Of a stretch of 42,954 nucleotides of DNA, positions 25,822 through 32,530 are shown piece by piece. The notes under the pieces are model-generated. The model ran no database searches and was not told the origin of the DNA. It was given only the letters and a program-made list of their open reading frames with translations. Every line of letters begins with the position of its first letter. Positions within the stretch are counted from its first letter, which is position 1. The position numbers and the translations under genes were made by a program. Origin of the DNA: Clostridiales bacterium (lineage in GTDB: Bacteria; Bacillota; Clostridia; UBA1381); the NCBI GenBank assembly GCA_029226975.1, contig JAQXZB010000079.1:1-42954 (forward strand), read 5' to 3'.

Positions 25822-28800
25822 ATGCCAAACAAAGGCTATAAAAAGCTGCTTGCGCTGTTGTGCGCGGCGGCAATGTCCGTTTCGATACTGCCCTGTGCGG
25901 CGTTTGCCGATACGGTTGAAATCGAAACGGCTGACGATGTGCTTTATTCCGCAACAGAGGTTATAAGCGAGGATTTTGACAGCGCGGTTGACAGTTATTG
26001 GACAACACAAAACAGCACCGGCAATCTTAGTGCCGTAGCGGTTGTGGATAATTACCTTAAAGTAACTTCGCACAATAACGGTGCAAGAAGCGGCTATATA
26101 ACCCTCGGAAGCAATACCGGTGCGGCTAAAACCGTAGAAGTTAAGTTTGACGTTAAGGCAGTTAACTGGAACAGAGCGTCAACAGATGATAATCCGCATG
26201 GAGTTGCCATAGGCGACAAGTCGGGAAAGGCTATATTTACGCTGCTGTTCCCCAATGCAAGAGATGCGGCAAGAAACGTAACCTTAAACGGTACGGCTCT
26301 TAATAATGTGGTACAGCAGTACAGAACTGACGGAGCGTGGTATACGGTTGACGCGATACTTGATTTTGAAAGTCAAAGCTTCTCATATAATATTTACGCT
26401 CAGGGCAGCGAAAGCACCGCTCTTGAAAGCGGCACCGGCACTATGCAGTCCCAGGCGACTGAGGTGGGTACCGTATGCTTCTATACAAACAGAACAAACT
26501 CTGCTGCGGACTATGTTGCCATAGATAATTTCTATATTGCGGAAATTGATATTCCGGTAATCACACCGGCAAGCGACCTTGAGCTTTTTGCCGGCGATGT
26601 AAAGCCCATTGCAACGGTAACAAATACTGATGACCTTGATATCAGCGTGGATATTGAGGGCAGTGACTTTGAGCTTTATTCGGTAGAGAACGGAGTGGTG
26701 TATGTAAAGGCTGTCCAAAACGGTACCGGCGGACAGACAACCGTTAAAATAACGGCATACGGCGATGTCAAGGTGGAAAAGGACATTGTTCTTACCTATG
26801 CAACCGATGAAACTCTTGTAGCATCGGCAAAGGCGGCTCTTGATATTGCCAAGGACAACGAAAATGTCACCGTAAACGGCGACGCTTATGATGTGGTAGG
26901 CAATTTTGAGCTTCCCGAATCGATAAATTCCGCTCAAATAACCTGGTCTGCAACGGTTGACGGAGAGGTAAACGAAAATATCATAAAGATAGACGGCAAT
27001 AAGGTTATTGTGGGAATTATAGACGGGGATCCGGAGGTTGTTTTAAAAGCCTTGATTACAAAGGGTGAGGCTTCGGATACAAGGGAATTTAAGCTTAATC
27101 TTCCCACAGTGGCTCAAAAGCTTGAAGCAATGGTAAATGCCATTGAATTATCGGGCGCGGACGTTGTTAAAAACGATGACGGCACATATAATGTTAAGGG
27201 TGAGTTTACGGTACCCGTATCAGACCCGGAGGTGCCGCAGGTAAGCTATTTGTGGTCGACAACGGACGCGGATAAGCTTTCGGTAAGCGGCGAAAAGGTA
27301 TCTCCGCTCTCCTACGGCGGTGCAAGCGTAACCTTAAAGGTAACGGGAAGCTATGAGGGGACGGAAGCGTCGGCAGAGGCTGAATTTACGCTTATTCTTG
27401 ACAGAACAACCGTATATTATGACGAGGACTTTGAGGACTGGAGCGCCGCAACCATCGTTTATAACGATCACAGCTCCGACCAGACAAAGACCATAGGTGA
27501 CTGGACCTTTGTTGCTCCTGCCCGTACAAACGGTGGTAATGATAAAATCAGCATTGCCGAAAACGCTTCATCAAAGATGCTCAATATGTCTACGGAGTTC
27601 GTGCAGATATATGCAAAGCTTGACAAGGCGCCGGAGTCGGATGCAATTAAGGAAAATATGGTTATGAAGGCACGTATGCAGTTCAGCGCAGAGGGTACAT
27701 ACCTTATCGTAAGCGACGGCACAACCTCGAGGGGCGTAAGCTATATTGAGTTCTCGGCATCGGAATTCGGACTTGAAAAAAATGTCCTATACAATGTGGA
27801 GCTTGCGCTTAACGGTTCCTCAGCTGTAATTGTTATATATGTTGACAAGGACGGCAACGGCGAGTATAACACAGGCGATACGCTTGTTTACTTCAATCCG
27901 GAGTATAAGACCGCATTAAAGACAATATCAAGAATTGAGCCGAATATTCACAGAGATAACGGCGCGGCTTCAAACACATATCTTGATAATCTGTATCTTG
28001 CGGACACAACATATACATTAAGCCCGGAGATTGCGGCTCAGGCGGCAATAAACGATATAAACATTCCGGCAAACAATAAAAACGCGGTAACAGCTTCGGA
28101 AGAAGATGATGCGTTTACGGCGTATAATAACTTTACACTGCCCACAAGCGCATACGGCATTGACATTGCCTGGACCTCGGATAACGAGCATATCGTAATA
28201 AACGGTGCCACAGCAGTGGTTAAGCCGGAAGCCGGCTACAGCGGACCGGTAACGCTTACCGCCACCGCGTCATACGGCGAGGGAAAGGCTATAAGCAAGA
28301 ATTACAAGGTAACGCTCCATGACCCCGATGAGGAGCTTAAGGCGGCAGAGGTTACAAAGCTTAATCTTTTGGATTATGCAAAGACCGGCAGTGTATCAAT
28401 AGACCTTACAGATGCCGAGACGCCCGTTATGTATGATTTGTCACTTCCCAAGGGCAGCGGCAACATAGAAATGTCATGGACGTCCTCCGATGCGAATGTA
28501 TACAGTATTTCCGCGGACGGAACGAGCGCGTCGATAATGCTTTCGGATAAGGATGCAAAGACGGTTACCCTTAAAAATACGGTGTCCTATGTAAAGGACG
28601 GTCAGGTTATTGCCTCCAAGGTATACGAGTATCCCATAACCGTTCAGTTCAATCCGGAAGCCGCCGAAGCAAAGGCAAAGGCTGCGGCTGAGGAAATGGC
28701 AAGGCTTCAGAACGAAAAGGATGAGAACAGCACCGCAACGGCTGATGATTATATAGGAGAGCTTATGAAAAATCTTCTGTATAAATATCAGGTTCGCTTC

Positions 28801-29736
28801 GATGCGGAATATGCGGGGAATTTCTCGAAAATACCTGCAACTGTTCCGACCTCGACAACATATTTTGATATAACCCAGACCGGAAACTTCGGCTCGAGTA
28901 TTGCATACAGCTCAAGCAGCACTGCGCTTAAGATTTCGGCTTCAAGCTCAAGGGTGAATGTAACTCATCCTTCAAGTACGGTAAGTGCAGCCCTGACAGC
29001 TACGATTTCGGCTGCTACCGCAGAAGCACAAACAAAGTCCTTTACCGTAAGCGTAGCAGGTACGGGCAGTACCGGCGGCAGTGTCGGAGGAGGAAACTCC
29101 GGCAGCAACAATACCACCACTGTTCCGGGAACGGCGTCAACTCCGACTCCGCCCCAAAAGCCCCAGCCCGTTGACCCCAACAACGCCTTTGACGACATAG
29201 ACGGGGTAAGAGATTGGGCAGGCGACGCTATAGCAAGGCTTTATAAGGCGGGTATCATATCCGGCAAGGCGGACAGAGTATTTGAGCCTTATGCGGCGGT
29301 TACAAGAGCCGAGTTTGTAAAGATGGTTGTGGGAACAATCGGAATTAACAGCTCAATTGTAAGCGAAAACCGCAGCTTTACGGACCTTCCGGCAAATCAC
29401 TGGGCATTTGAATATGTTCAGATTGCGGTTGCGGCAGGTATCATAAACGGCTATGATAACGATACTTTCGGCACAAACGATAATATAACAAGACAGGATA
29501 TGGCTGTAATAGTAAAGAGAGCCGCGGATTACGCGCAGATTAACCTGCCCGAAGTAAACGAACAGCTCAGCTTTACGGACAGTGCAAGCATAAGCGAATA
29601 CGCGTCAGACGCGGTATCCGCACTGCAAAGAGCGAATATCATAAACGGCGGCGACAACGGTTCCTTTGACCCGTTCGGAGCGGCAAACAGAGCTCAGGCG
29701 GCAAAGGTGCTTGCGGCGGATGTATTCTGGAACTGA
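25822..29736 (+). CDS. SLH-anchored multidomain surface protein with Ig-like domains
   Basis: 1,304 aa. After a signal peptide (LLALLCAAAMSVSILPCAAFA) a jelly-roll-like domain covers about 45-240 (EDFDSAVDSYWTTQN to YVAIDNFYIAEID), the pattern of carbohydrate-binding/LamG-like folds; a second comes at about 529-735 (YYDEDFEDWSAATIV to NTYLDNLYLADT). Between and after lie about four 'atrophied' bacterial Ig domains (about 330-428, 429-527, 736-838, 843-950), each with an ITWSA/IAWTSD-type strand. A Ser/Gly/Thr/Pro linker leads to three SLH repeats (about 1118-1304) ending in VFWN. No catalytic motif is seen. Binding of a polysaccharide at the cell surface is the likeliest job. Confidence 0.87.
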   Translation: MPNKGYKKLLALLCAAAMSVSILPCAAFADTVEIETADDVLYSATEVISEDFDSAVDSYWTTQNSTGNLSAVAVVDNYLKVTSHNNGARSGYITLGSNTGAAKTVEVKFDVKAVNWNRASTDDNPHGVAIGDKSGKAIFTLLFPNARDAARNVTLNGTALNNVVQQYRTDGAWYTVDAILDFESQSFSYNIYAQGSESTALESGTGTMQSQATEVGTVCFYTNRTNSAADYVAIDNFYIAEIDIPVITPASDLELFAGDVKPIATVTNTDDLDISVDIEGSDFELYSVENGVVYVKAVQNGTGGQTTVKITAYGDVKVEKDIVLTYATDETLVASAKAALDIAKDNENVTVNGDAYDVVGNFELPESINSAQITWSATVDGEVNENIIKIDGNKVIVGIIDGDPEVVLKALITKGEASDTREFKLNLPTVAQKLEAMVNAIELSGADVVKNDDGTYNVKGEFTVPVSDPEVPQVSYLWSTTDADKLSVSGEKVSPLSYGGASVTLKVTGSYEGTEASAEAEFTLILDRTTVYYDEDFEDWSAATIVYNDHSSDQTKTIGDWTFVAPARTNGGNDKISIAENASSKMLNMSTEFVQIYAKLDKAPESDAIKENMVMKARMQFSAEGTYLIVSDGTTSRGVSYIEFSASEFGLEKNVLYNVELALNGSSAVIVIYVDKDGNGEYNTGDTLVYFNPEYKTALKTISRIEPNIHRDNGAASNTYLDNLYLADTTYTLSPEIAAQAAINDINIPANNKNAVTASEEDDAFTAYNNFTLPTSAYGIDIAWTSDNEHIVINGATAVVKPEAGYSGPVTLTATASYGEGKAISKNYKVTLHDPDEELKAAEVTKLNLLDYAKTGSVSIDLTDAETPVMYDLSLPKGSGNIEMSWTSSDANVYSISADGTSASIMLSDKDAKTVTLKNTVSYVKDGQVIASKVYEYPITVQFNPEAAEAKAKAAAEEMARLQNEKDENSTATADDYIGELMKNLLYKYQVRFDAEYAGNFSKIPATVPTSTTYFDITQTGNFGSSIAYSSSSTALKISASSSRVNVTHPSSTVSAALTATISAATAEAQTKSFTVSVAGTGSTGGSVGGGNSGSNNTTTVPGTASTPTPPQKPQPVDPNNAFDDIDGVRDWAGDAIARLYKAGIISGKADRVFEPYAAVTRAEFVKMVVGTIGINSSIVSENRSFTDLPANHWAFEYVQIAVAAGIINGYDNDTFGTNDNITRQDMAVIVKRAADYAQINLPEVNEQLSFTDSASISEYASDAVSALQRANIINGGDNGSFDPFGAANRAQAAKVLAADVFWN

Positions 29737-29742
29737 TTTAAC

Positions 29743-29775
29743 ACAGAGCGCTTCGGCGCTCTGTTATTTTTTTTT
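29743..29775 (+). terminator. Intrinsic terminator with TTCG loop
   Basis: ACAGAGCGC (29743-29751), loop TTCG, GCGCTCTGT (29756-29764), then a long T-run: a textbook terminator for the SLH gene. Confidence 0.93.
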
Positions 29776-29794
29776 AAAATATGCACAATCTATA

Positions 29795-29823
29795 TTGACA
29801 AACATAATATATAGTGTTATAAT
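29795..29823 (+). promoter_or_regulatory. Promoter of the P1B ATPase gene
   Basis: TTGACA (29795-29800), 17-nt spacer, TATAAT (29818-29823) with a TGN extension of the -10. Transcription should begin near 29830, inside the dyad that follows. Confidence 0.85.
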
Positions 29824-29827
29824 GAAC

Positions 29828-29847
29828 ATATGAACAGATATTCATAT
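29828..29847 (+). promoter_or_regulatory. ArsR/SmtB-type metal operator
   Basis: A perfect 7-bp dyad ATATGAA-N6-TTCATAT, containing TGAACA and TATTCA, matches from memory the 12-2-12 operator form of metal-sensing SmtB/ZiaR/CadC repressors. It starts 4 nt after the -10 box and covers the likely transcription start, so a bound repressor would block transcription until metal releases it. No ArsR-family gene lies in the window. Confidence 0.7.
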
Positions 29848-29874
29848 TAAAAGAACGAAAGGATGGTTGTTTTT

Positions 29875-31761
29875 ATGTCAGAGATTTTAAAGGAAAAGGA
29901 CGGTTGCTGCTGTTGTGAACAGGAGCATGGCTGCTGTTGTGAGCATGAGGGAAATGTGAAAATAAAGCTGATAAGGCTTATTTGCGGCGGGGTTTTGTTT
30001 GCCGCCGGGCTGTTTTTGCCGGAGAAAATCTCAATATGGGTATTTTTGGCTGATTATCTGCTGGTGGGATACGATGTTTTGCTTGCATCGATTAAAAATA
30101 TCGGCAGGGGGAGAATTTTTGATGAAAATCTGCTTATGTCGGCGGCAAGCATAGGTGCGTTTTTAATAGGCGAGCATCCCGAAGCGGCGGCGGTAATGCT
30201 GTTTTATCAAGTCGGAGAAATGCTTCAGGACAGAGCGGTGGAAAAGAGCCGCGGCTCAATTGCGGAGCTTATGGATATTCGACCGGATTATGCCAATATC
30301 GATGAAAACGGGAGCATAAGGCGGGTTGCGCCGGAGGAGGTAGTACCCGGCGAGGTTATAGTTGTAAATCCGGGAGAGAGAATACCTCTTGACGGAAAGG
30401 TGATAAAGGGAGAGTCCTTTGCCGACTGCAGCGCTCTTACGGGGGAAAGCGTTCCGGTGCGCATCGGCGAGGGAAGCGAGGTTTTAAGCGGGGCGATAAA
30501 CACCGCTTCTCCGGTTTGGATAAGGGTTGGCTGCGAATATTCAAAGAGCACTGTTGCGAGAATTTTGGAGCTTACCGAAAACGCACAGGAGCGAAAGGCA
30601 AAAACTGAGCGTTTTATAACTGTTTTTGCAAAATACTACACGCCGATTGTAGTATTCGGCGCATTGCTTTTGATGCTCATACCCTCGATAATAACCGGAG
30701 AATGGAGCAAGTGGATTTACAGAGGACTGGTATTTTTGGCGGTTTCCTGTCCCTGTGCCTTGGTTATTTCCGTACCTTTGGGATTTTTTGCCGGTATAGG
30801 CGGAGCGTCAAGGCGGGGAATACTTATAAAGGGCGGCAGCTATATAGAACGGCTTGCCAATCTGGAATACATGGTATTTGACAAGACCGGAACACTTACC
30901 GAGGGCAGATTTGAGATAATCAATATTGACACCAAGCTTGACAAGGATGAGTTTTTGCGCATATGCGCCATGGGCGAGTATTATTCCTCGCACCCGATAG
31001 CCGCTTCAATAAAGGAATATTTCGGCGGCGAGCTTGACCCGTCTTGTATAAGCGGCTTTATGGAAACTGCCGGAGAGGGAGTGTGCGCGGAGGTTGACGG
31101 CAAAAAGGTGGCAATGGGCAGCAGGAGACTTGTTCCGGGTGCGCCGAAGTTAAAAAGCACAGCAACGGTTATATATGTAAGCATTGACGGAGAATACTGC
31201 GGTTATATCGAAATAGGAGACAAAATTAAAGACGATGCGAAGGAAGCCGTTTCAGCGTTGAGAAAAATGGGTATTCACACCGCTATGATTTCCGGCGACC
31301 GCAAAAGCGCGGCAGAGGAGGTCGGCAGAGAGCTGGGCATAGAAGCGGTATATTCGCAAATGCTTCCCAGGGATAAGGTTACACGAATGGAGGAAATAAT
31401 AAAAAGCCGTTCGCCGAAAAAATACGCCGCCTACAGCGGTGACGGCATAAATGACGCGCCGGTGCTTGCAATTGCGGATGTGGGAATTTCAATGGGGGCG
31501 GTAGGCTCCGACAGCGCGGTAGAAGCGTCGGACATAGTGCTGATGCATGACGAGCCGTCCGCGATTATAACTGCAATAAGGCTTGCGAAAAAGACCATGC
31601 GAATTGTAAAGGAAAACGTTGTATTTGCCTTAGGAGTAAAGGCTCTGATAATGCTTTTGAGCATATTCGGAATTGCAAACATATGGATGGCAATTTTCGG
31701 AGATGTGGGGGTTGCACTCATTGCAATAGCCAATTCCCTGCGGGCGGGAAAGATAAAGTGA
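29875..31761 (+). CDS. cadA: Heavy-metal P1B-type ATPase (Cd/Zn/Pb exporter)
   Basis: 628 aa from ATG 29875; an ATG at 29863 overlaps the GAAAGGA site. The family order is complete: actuator motif ALTGES, the metal-binding C292-P-C294 in a membrane helix (SCPCALVIS), phosphorylated D336 (DKTGTLT), the SHPIA motif and the GDGINDAP hinge. CPC with these motifs points to the Zn/Cd/Pb group. There is no ferredoxin-like CXXC metal-binding domain; residues 11-22 are instead a Cys/His/Glu-rich tail (CCCCEQEHGCCC). It should pump divalent metals out across the membrane using ATP. The upstream operator suggests metal-inducible expression. The symbol is by likeness; zntA would fit as well. Confidence 0.9.
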   Translation: MSEILKEKDGCCCCEQEHGCCCEHEGNVKIKLIRLICGGVLFAAGLFLPEKISIWVFLADYLLVGYDVLLASIKNIGRGRIFDENLLMSAASIGAFLIGEHPEAAAVMLFYQVGEMLQDRAVEKSRGSIAELMDIRPDYANIDENGSIRRVAPEEVVPGEVIVVNPGERIPLDGKVIKGESFADCSALTGESVPVRIGEGSEVLSGAINTASPVWIRVGCEYSKSTVARILELTENAQERKAKTERFITVFAKYYTPIVVFGALLLMLIPSIITGEWSKWIYRGLVFLAVSCPCALVISVPLGFFAGIGGASRRGILIKGGSYIERLANLEYMVFDKTGTLTEGRFEIINIDTKLDKDEFLRICAMGEYYSSHPIAASIKEYFGGELDPSCISGFMETAGEGVCAEVDGKKVAMGSRRLVPGAPKLKSTATVIYVSIDGEYCGYIEIGDKIKDDAKEAVSALRKMGIHTAMISGDRKSAAEEVGRELGIEAVYSQMLPRDKVTRMEEIIKSRSPKKYAAYSGDGINDAPVLAIADVGISMGAVGSDSAVEASDIVLMHDEPSAIITAIRLAKKTMRIVKENVVFALGVKALIMLLSIFGIANIWMAIFGDVGVALIAIANSLRAGKIK

Positions 31762-31776
31762 TAAAAAGGTTTTATA

Positions 31777-31806
31777 AAAACGGCACGGAAATTCTGTGCC
31801 GTTTTA
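31777..31806 (+). terminator. Intrinsic terminator of the P1B ATPase gene
   Basis: AAAACGGCACGGA (31777-31789) pairs with TCTGTGCCGTTTT (31793-31805), 13 pairs with one G-T, ending in a T-run. Confidence 0.85.
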
Positions 31807-31817
31807 AAAATGAATTA

Positions 31818-31846
31818 TTGACAAATAGGCAAAAGCATAGTATAAT
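31818..31846 (+). promoter_or_regulatory. Promoter of the higBA-type operon
   Basis: TTGACA (31818-31823), 17-nt spacer, TATAAT (31841-31846), both perfect. Confidence 0.85.
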
Positions 31847-31848
31847 AT

Positions 31849-31872
31849 AAATACAACAAAAAAGTTGTATTT
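31849..31872 (+). promoter_or_regulatory. Operator dyad of the toxin-antitoxin operon
   Basis: A perfect 9-bp dyad AAATACAAC-N6-GTTGTATTT begins 2 nt after the -10 box and spans the expected transcription start. Antitoxins of this type usually repress their own operon, so HigA dimers are the likely ligand (inference). Confidence 0.7.
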
Positions 31873-31891
31873 ACGGCAGAGGATATGAGAA

Positions 31892-32230
31892 ATGATTATA
31901 CATACATATAAATCGGGAAGCGGGCGCGATTTGATTTTAGAATATATAAACGGCCTAAGTAAAGCGGAAACAGTTGACGGATTGTCCGTTTTAAAAAGCA
32001 TGGAGGATAACAGGCTTGATGAGTTGAATTATAAACCGTGGCAGGGAAAAATATGGGAAGTGTATTTTTACAAGCATAATCGTATATTTTATGTGACGGT
32101 TGAAGGAGAGAATGTTTATTTGCTTCATGCCTGCAGAAAACAGAAGAATAAGACGGAGAAAAAGGATAAAGATATTGTTATAAAGCGGGCAAAAGAGCTT
32201 GGCGGTATTTTAAATAAAAAGCTGATATAA
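31892..32230 (+). CDS. higB: HigB/RelE-superfamily toxin (Gp49-like)
   Basis: 112 aa. The sequence HTYKSGSGRDLILEYINGLS, the KPWQGKIWEVYFYKHNRIFYVTVEGENVYLLHACRKQ core and the basic C-terminus match the phage-derived Gp49-like/HigB group of the RelE superfamily. These toxins are ribosome-dependent mRNA endonucleases; Arg, Lys and His residues of the core are the usual active-site type, though exact catalytic residues cannot be assigned here. The gene precedes its antitoxin by 12 nt, the order typical of HigBA rather than RelBE. A palindromic operator sits at the promoter. Confidence 0.85.
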   Translation: MIIHTYKSGSGRDLILEYINGLSKAETVDGLSVLKSMEDNRLDELNYKPWQGKIWEVYFYKHNRIFYVTVEGENVYLLHACRKQKNKTEKKDKDIVIKRAKELGGILNKKLI

Positions 32231-32242
32231 GGAGGGATATAT

Positions 32243-32530
32243 ATGGCATGGGAAGCAATCGGCGTTAATGAAATTATAGAAAATAAAAAAAATGAGGACA
32301 GCGAGTTTTGCCGTCTGTGGAACGAAAGCCGCGCGGAATATGAAACCATAGGTGCGATTATCAGACTGAGAAAGGAAAAGGGACTCTCTCAGGAGCAGCT
32401 TGCCCAAATGTCCGGGAATAAGCAGCAGGTAATATCGAGAATTGAAAACAAGGAGAACAGCCCGACTTTAAAAACCCTTTGCAGCATACTGGATGTACTG
32501 GGCTATAAAATAAGCTTCATACCTAAATAA
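32243..32530 (+). CDS. higA: HigA-type XRE-family antitoxin
   Basis: 95 aa from ATG 32243 after GGAGG. The C-terminal half is an XRE/Cro helix-turn-helix (IRLRKEKGLSQEQLAQMSGNKQQVISRIENKENSPTLKTL) ending LGYKISFIPK. The N-terminal about 35 residues (WEAIGVNEIIENKKNEDSEF) probably bind the toxin. It should neutralise the HigB-like toxin and repress the operon through the dyad at 31849-31872. A terminator follows. Confidence 0.85.
   Translation: MAWEAIGVNEIIENKKNEDSEFCRLWNESRAEYETIGAIIRLRKEKGLSQEQLAQMSGNKQQVISRIENKENSPTLKTLCSILDVLGYKISFIPK

Follow-up and report, generated by a model that had tools for sequence, protein, structure and literature searches.

We lean slightly towards the view that, in the bacterial family of this Clostridiales genome, an SmtB/CzrA-type sensor that is no longer encoded beside its exporter represses both metal efflux and nifSU. 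The inverted repeat in front of the P1B ATPase of the window (the whole 42,954-nt stretch of DNA analysed, which is also one complete contig, C79) very probably serves as the operator for an ArsR repressor of the SmtB/CzrA type whose gene is unlinked, on contig C36. That nifSU is a second recurrent target of this regulator in the family is a prediction we favour by a modest degree, and the two parts taken jointly are held with similar, moderate confidence, all on comparisons of sequences.

The ATPase gene (29863-31761, plus strand; ATG at 29875 the likelier start by eye) encodes a protein of the Cd/Zn family with a Cys-rich N-terminus. It scores 501 bits against TIGR01512 (cut-off 313.5) and its translation contains the CPC motif within SCPCALV, which together mark a P1B Zn/Cd/Pb ATPase of the ZntA/CadA type. 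A terminator-like hairpin with a T run (29743-29772, plus strand; stem 29743-29764) ends the upstream SLH-protein gene (25822-29736), and the ATPase therefore probably has its own promoter. A promoter scan found such a promoter on the plus strand, with a -35 box TTGACA at 29795-29800 and a -10 box TATAAT at 29818-29823, preceded by TG; the two boxes match the consensus at 12/12 bases and are separated by a 17-nt spacer. The dyad ATATGAA-N6-TTCATAT is present as an exact match at 29828-29847 (ATATGAACAGATATTCATAT, assigned to neither strand; PWM score 29.7). The original prediction placed it across the start of a perfect promoter. The perfect promoter and the exact dyad both hold, but the overlap does not, as the dyad begins 4 nt 3′ of the -10 box and leaves both boxes untouched. 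Consequently, the dyad would cover the expected transcription start. Its arms comprise 7 perfect bases; positions 8/13 are unpaired, positions 9/12 are paired and the next two outer bases are unpaired, compared with a full 12-2-12 repeat. A TGAA..TTCA inverted repeat near the start of a metal-efflux or arsR gene is the mark of an SmtB/CzrA-type operator, and as such the dyad is a supported prediction; we take its likeness to be to SmtB/CzrA rather than CadC operators. An Rfam search of 29700-29900 returned no RNA-element match.

The regulator appears to be encoded elsewhere. No ArsR gene was found on the window's contig, searched to the contig ends, in agreement with the earlier claim that no arsR/smtB gene lies nearby. 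Within the whole genome (2.80 Mb, 123 contigs, 97.9% complete) there are three HTH_5 matches, one of which is a true ArsR/SmtB gene (frame G000:C36:133334-133687). Two weak matches were rejected as ArsR genes, as by eye they resemble a biotin ligase of the BirA type and a regulator of the DeoR type. The frame on C36 spans 118 aa, with a likely start at 133343 and thus probably a 115-aa protein, and scores 57.3 bits against PF01022 and 96.9 bits against NF033788 (cut-off 55). Its closest solved structures are CzrA, CadC and SmtB. As C36 and C79 are separate, unjoined contigs, the regulator is not found beside its putative target, and the proposal that it must act from elsewhere is supported by this single true ArsR gene. 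The gene preceding arsR encodes a membrane protein whose glycosyltransferase matches are all sub-threshold. As to autoregulation in the window's genome, no position within 400 nt 5′ of arsR exceeds a PWM score of -9.4; elsewhere in 18 kb of C36 there is one weak match, scoring 7.5. In genus g14, the arsR loci L047, L048, L049, L053 and L054 carry partly symmetric site-like sequences (e.g. ATATGAATATATGAACATAT) 33-47 nt 5′ of arsR, with PWM scores of 17-19, and autoregulation is possible in that genus.

Across the window's bacterial family, sampled as 70 genomes with 56 scored ATPases, operator and regulator go together. The PWM was trained on 32 ATPase sites, from the family and from other families, and orthologs of the regulator were called by hand at an identity of at least 61%. 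A site scoring at least 15 precedes 43/43 ATPases that have no adjacent ArsR and whose genomes encode the ortholog, 0/9 in genomes lacking the ortholog, and 0/7 where another ArsR adjoins the ATPase (G021, G027 and G081 being counted in both of the latter groups). Two of these seven still score 14 (G007 and G021). At a cut-off of 8 or 12 the counts are 44/47 with the ortholog and 1/9 without. Given the 32 training sites, most of the 43 ATPases do not test the matrix independently; 10 of them were obtained after it was built, and all ten score at least 18.8. For G041 and G046, 104 and 574 nt of upstream sequence were available, respectively. In the family, ortholog and ATPase lie on separate contigs, except in G011, where ~42 kb separates them. 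In other families a homologous ArsR is found within 1000 nt upstream of the ATPase at 14/16 loci, and a dyad with at most 2 mismatches precedes the ATPase at 7/16. In several relatives (L026-L043 region, e.g. L029) a small HMA-like gene that ends ...CKKVESDCEIYI stands ahead of the ATPase, and there the operator lies ~300 nt upstream of the ATPase.

The same site recurs in front of a second gene. At 1 mismatch or fewer, ATATGAAYANNTRTTCATAT occurs at 45 places in 61 family genomes, against 5 for the backwards control. Of these places, 25 lie before the ATPase (two of them sharing one promoter) and 10 before a cysteine desulfurase; a copper-ATPase-like gene accounts for 1, a further 6 fall within reading frames, and the 3 others are by eye before argD-like, NAD-kinase-like and methyltransferase-like genes. 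The copper-ATPase-like gene belongs to one relative, where the operator (G017:C55:1744-1763, L278) lies 30 nt before it. The dyads at G029:C213:831 and G091:C137:2171, before the NAD-kinase-like and argD-like genes, resemble the ARG box and are lookalikes that need excluding in a pattern search. By its TIGR03402 match, over cut-off, the desulfurase is NifS; the gene that follows it on the same strand, read in two genomes, encodes the scaffold NifU (TIGR03419, over cut-off).

A nifS site scoring at least 10 is present in 37/40 genomes with the regulator ortholog and 1/8 without it (Fisher 1.2e-5), counted over 48 of the 70 genomes. Left out were genomes in which no match reached E 1e-150, along with G047, G092 and G097, where the start is missing; G043 was added from a fragment. 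G008, with a 51%-identical ArsR, was scored as lacking the ortholog, and scoring it as present gives 37/41. Other cut-offs were examined post hoc: 8 gives the same counts as 10, whilst 12 and 15 give 36/40 and 34/40 with the ortholog, both with 1/8 without. Scores of at least 10 occur in 0.8% of shuffled upstreams and in 0/14 nifS upstreams from other families; indeed, none of these 14 reaches 8. Almost all of the sites (36/38) lie 35-78 nt upstream of the gene start, following a -10-like sequence where this was read; the outliers are G003 at -96 and G013 at -332. In genus g15 the site is present in 5/6 genomes with the regulator and 0/4 without. Among the 15 nifS upstreams first seen after the PWM was built, it occurs in 12/13 with the regulator and 0/2 without; 8 of these 12 come from one genus, and G089 is the genome lacking it. 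Exceptions are G006 and G089, which encode the regulator but lack a nifS site, and G037 (58% complete), which has the site and in which the regulator was not found. In G011, G016, G017, G024 and G036 the only NifS is 51-55% identical and has no site before it; these five genomes, four of which have the regulator, were excluded from the 48. On a tree of 47 NifS proteins, presence of the regulator differs within 4-5 independent pairs, and the site is concordant in ~3.5 of them and never opposed (sign test, p 0.125); with so few pairs, significance is out of reach. A link between the regulator and nifS is probable for the family.

The ARG box of the arginine repressor resembles this operator, and the site might serve the ATPase only, the nifS sites belonging to ArgR or another regulator. 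ArgR was found in 61/70 family genomes, 6/38 nifS sites match the ARG-box core with at most 1 mismatch, and one of the 1-mismatch pattern matches precedes an argD-like gene. However, the nifS sites do not follow ArgR (35/44 with it, 3/4 without, p 1.0) and track arsR instead. Moreover, 20/38 are within 1 mismatch of TGAACANNTGTTCA, which has fewer fixed bases than the ARG-box core, and the PWM that scored them was trained on ATPase sites alone. On this test ArgR control of nifS is disfavoured, as site presence does not follow ArgR presence, and we regard this reading as a whole as unlikely.

For the window's own genome, a link between the ArsR regulator and nifS is uncertain. At -34 from nifS (C15:68951-70129, minus strand) stands GCATGAGCGTTCACTCATAT, with a PWM score of 5.7, where 95% of shuffled upstreams score below 4.0 and 99% below 8.4; the copy in the congener G001 is stronger (12.5). 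The copy at -34 is a weak, symmetric variant in which TGAG replaces TGAA in both arms, and TGAG arms are also seen at ATPase sites of the relatives G005, G020, G036 and G038. This weak copy may be functional. The relaxed symmetric pattern ATGARYRNNYRYTCAT occurs at 3 places in the genome (control, 1), namely at the ATPase, at nifS and, on C15, at an unrelated frame's stop codon. This pattern was composed after the nifS copy was known, and its match there is therefore not independent evidence. The expectation that further targets could be found through the site is supported across the family, in nifSU, but the strict search of the window's own genome yields the ATPase only: the exact dyad has its sole copy there and the next best place has 1 mismatch. 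With the fuller consensus ATATGAACANNTRTTCATAT there is no second place in the genome at 2 mismatches or fewer, and places at 3 mismatches are at the control level.

A further question is what the regulator senses. In ArsR proteins with an alpha-5 metal site the ligands follow the pattern D-x-H ... H-x2-H/E. When aligned with CzrA, the corresponding residues of the C36 protein (D99, H101, H112 and E115) are invariant among 12 aligned members. We infer binding, metal and direction of response as follows. Unless metal is in excess, a repressor dimer on the dyad would cover the transcription start and block RNA polymerase at the ATPase promoter. Once Zn(II), Cd(II) or Pb(II) occupied its alpha-5 site, the repressor would come off and the exporter would be made. 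In the family, the same regulator would act at the promoter of nifSU, encoding the cysteine desulfurase and the iron-sulfur scaffold, such that metal excess would raise efflux and iron-sulfur assembly together. A signal other than Zn, Cd or Pb, such as Ni or sulfur species, could be sensed instead, as NifS makes persulfide and 10/12 of the aligned ArsR members carry an N-terminal Cys pair (CxxC). Against this, the alpha-5 ligand residues are invariant and the ATPase is of the Cd/Zn family, and we consider such a signal improbable.

Copies of the operator in public genomes bear on whether the dyad is an operator at all. A search for exact copies of ATATGAACANNTATTCATAT in a public set with a single genome for each species gave at least 120 stretches, in which we sought frames using profiles built from the family ArsR and ATPase proteins; a frame was called near if it begins between 120 nt before and 1200 nt after the site. 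Among the matches listed, an ArsR and/or P1B-ATPase frame adjoins the string in 101/120 stretches (ArsR in 74/120, ATPase in 81/120), compared with an expected chance rate at a random genome place of ~0.4% (by arithmetic, 8 matches in the 2.8 Mb of the window's genome). The other 19 of the 120 listed include, by eye, 2 before His-rich cation-efflux genes and 1 before an HMA-type peptide. Among the 81 listed stretches with an ATPase, 15 have no ArsR in the available flanks, which are wide on both sides in just 2 of the 15. Four listed copies (L126, L172, L202 and L220) precede similar ABC-transporter ATPase genes rather than ArsR or P1B-ATPase genes. A nifS frame was sought at E 1e-20 in the 120 listed stretches and none was found.

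The dyad could be a chance palindrome beside an unregulated promoter, given that copies with 3 mismatches are common in this DNA: the window holds 8 at 3 mismatches or fewer (shuffles mean 3.0, with 8 reached in 3/100) and the genome 416 (288 in the backwards control), both near background. However, the site is conserved before the ATPases of relatives and is associated with ArsR and ATPase frames among the listed public copies, and a chance origin is very improbable. This association, together with the co-occurrence of site and ortholog in the family, agrees with the original assignment of the dyad as an SmtB/CadC-type operator. MerR-type activators (ZntR/CadR-like) control zinc ATPases in other bacteria from a dyad within a 19-20 nt promoter spacer, but with a 17-nt spacer and the dyad 3′ of the -10 box such control is scarcely credible here and was rejected.

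The predicted control by an unlinked ArsR repressor has known counterparts. The czrA gene of Bacillus subtilis is reportedly unlinked to cadA and czcD. B. subtilis CzrA is an ArsR-family sensor of zinc excess that represses cadA and czcD (PMC5189952), and the predicted system resembles it in pairing an ArsR-family repressor with two targets, one of them a P-type zinc/cadmium exporter; there the second target is the czcD exporter, whereas in the window's family it would be nifSU. Anabaena AzuR is likewise an SmtB-type alpha-5 repressor encoded far away from its target, nmtA, which is preceded by a 12-2-12 repeat (PMC8790569). In that system a metallothionein is controlled and azuR is part of the znuABC operon, whereas here the putative targets are the ATPase and, in the family, nifSU, and the regulator gene follows a membrane-protein gene. 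Another close precedent is Synechocystis ZiaR/ziaA (PMC8790569), although ziaR adjoins ziaA and is divergently transcribed, whilst the regulator here is on another contig.

As trans-acting ArsR repressors are already known, the operator alone is ordinary; what is new here is the predicted nifSU iron-sulfur operon as a recurrent second target. Among the matches listed from the open-access literature, judged from titles and the beginnings of abstracts, no ArsR/SmtB regulator of nifS, nifU or iscS was found. If true, cells exposed to zinc or cadmium would make fresh desulfurase and scaffold while exporting the metal, and heavy-metal sensing would have a direct regulatory link to iron-sulfur assembly. 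Zinc overload is reported to inhibit cluster assembly in Escherichia coli, the targets that take up zinc being IscU, IscA and ferredoxin (PMC6495748), and induction of nifSU would thus make sense.

Lastly, the ATPase gene is followed by a hairpin with a short T run (31780-31805, plus strand), seen by eye and absent from the scan list. Beyond it lies a second perfect promoter, TTGACA-17-TATAAT, at 31818-31846, ahead of a Gp49-family gene (31892-32230). The latter, together with an HTH_3 gene (32243-32530), resembles a HigBA-type toxin-antitoxin pair, the whole spanning 31818-32530 of the window.
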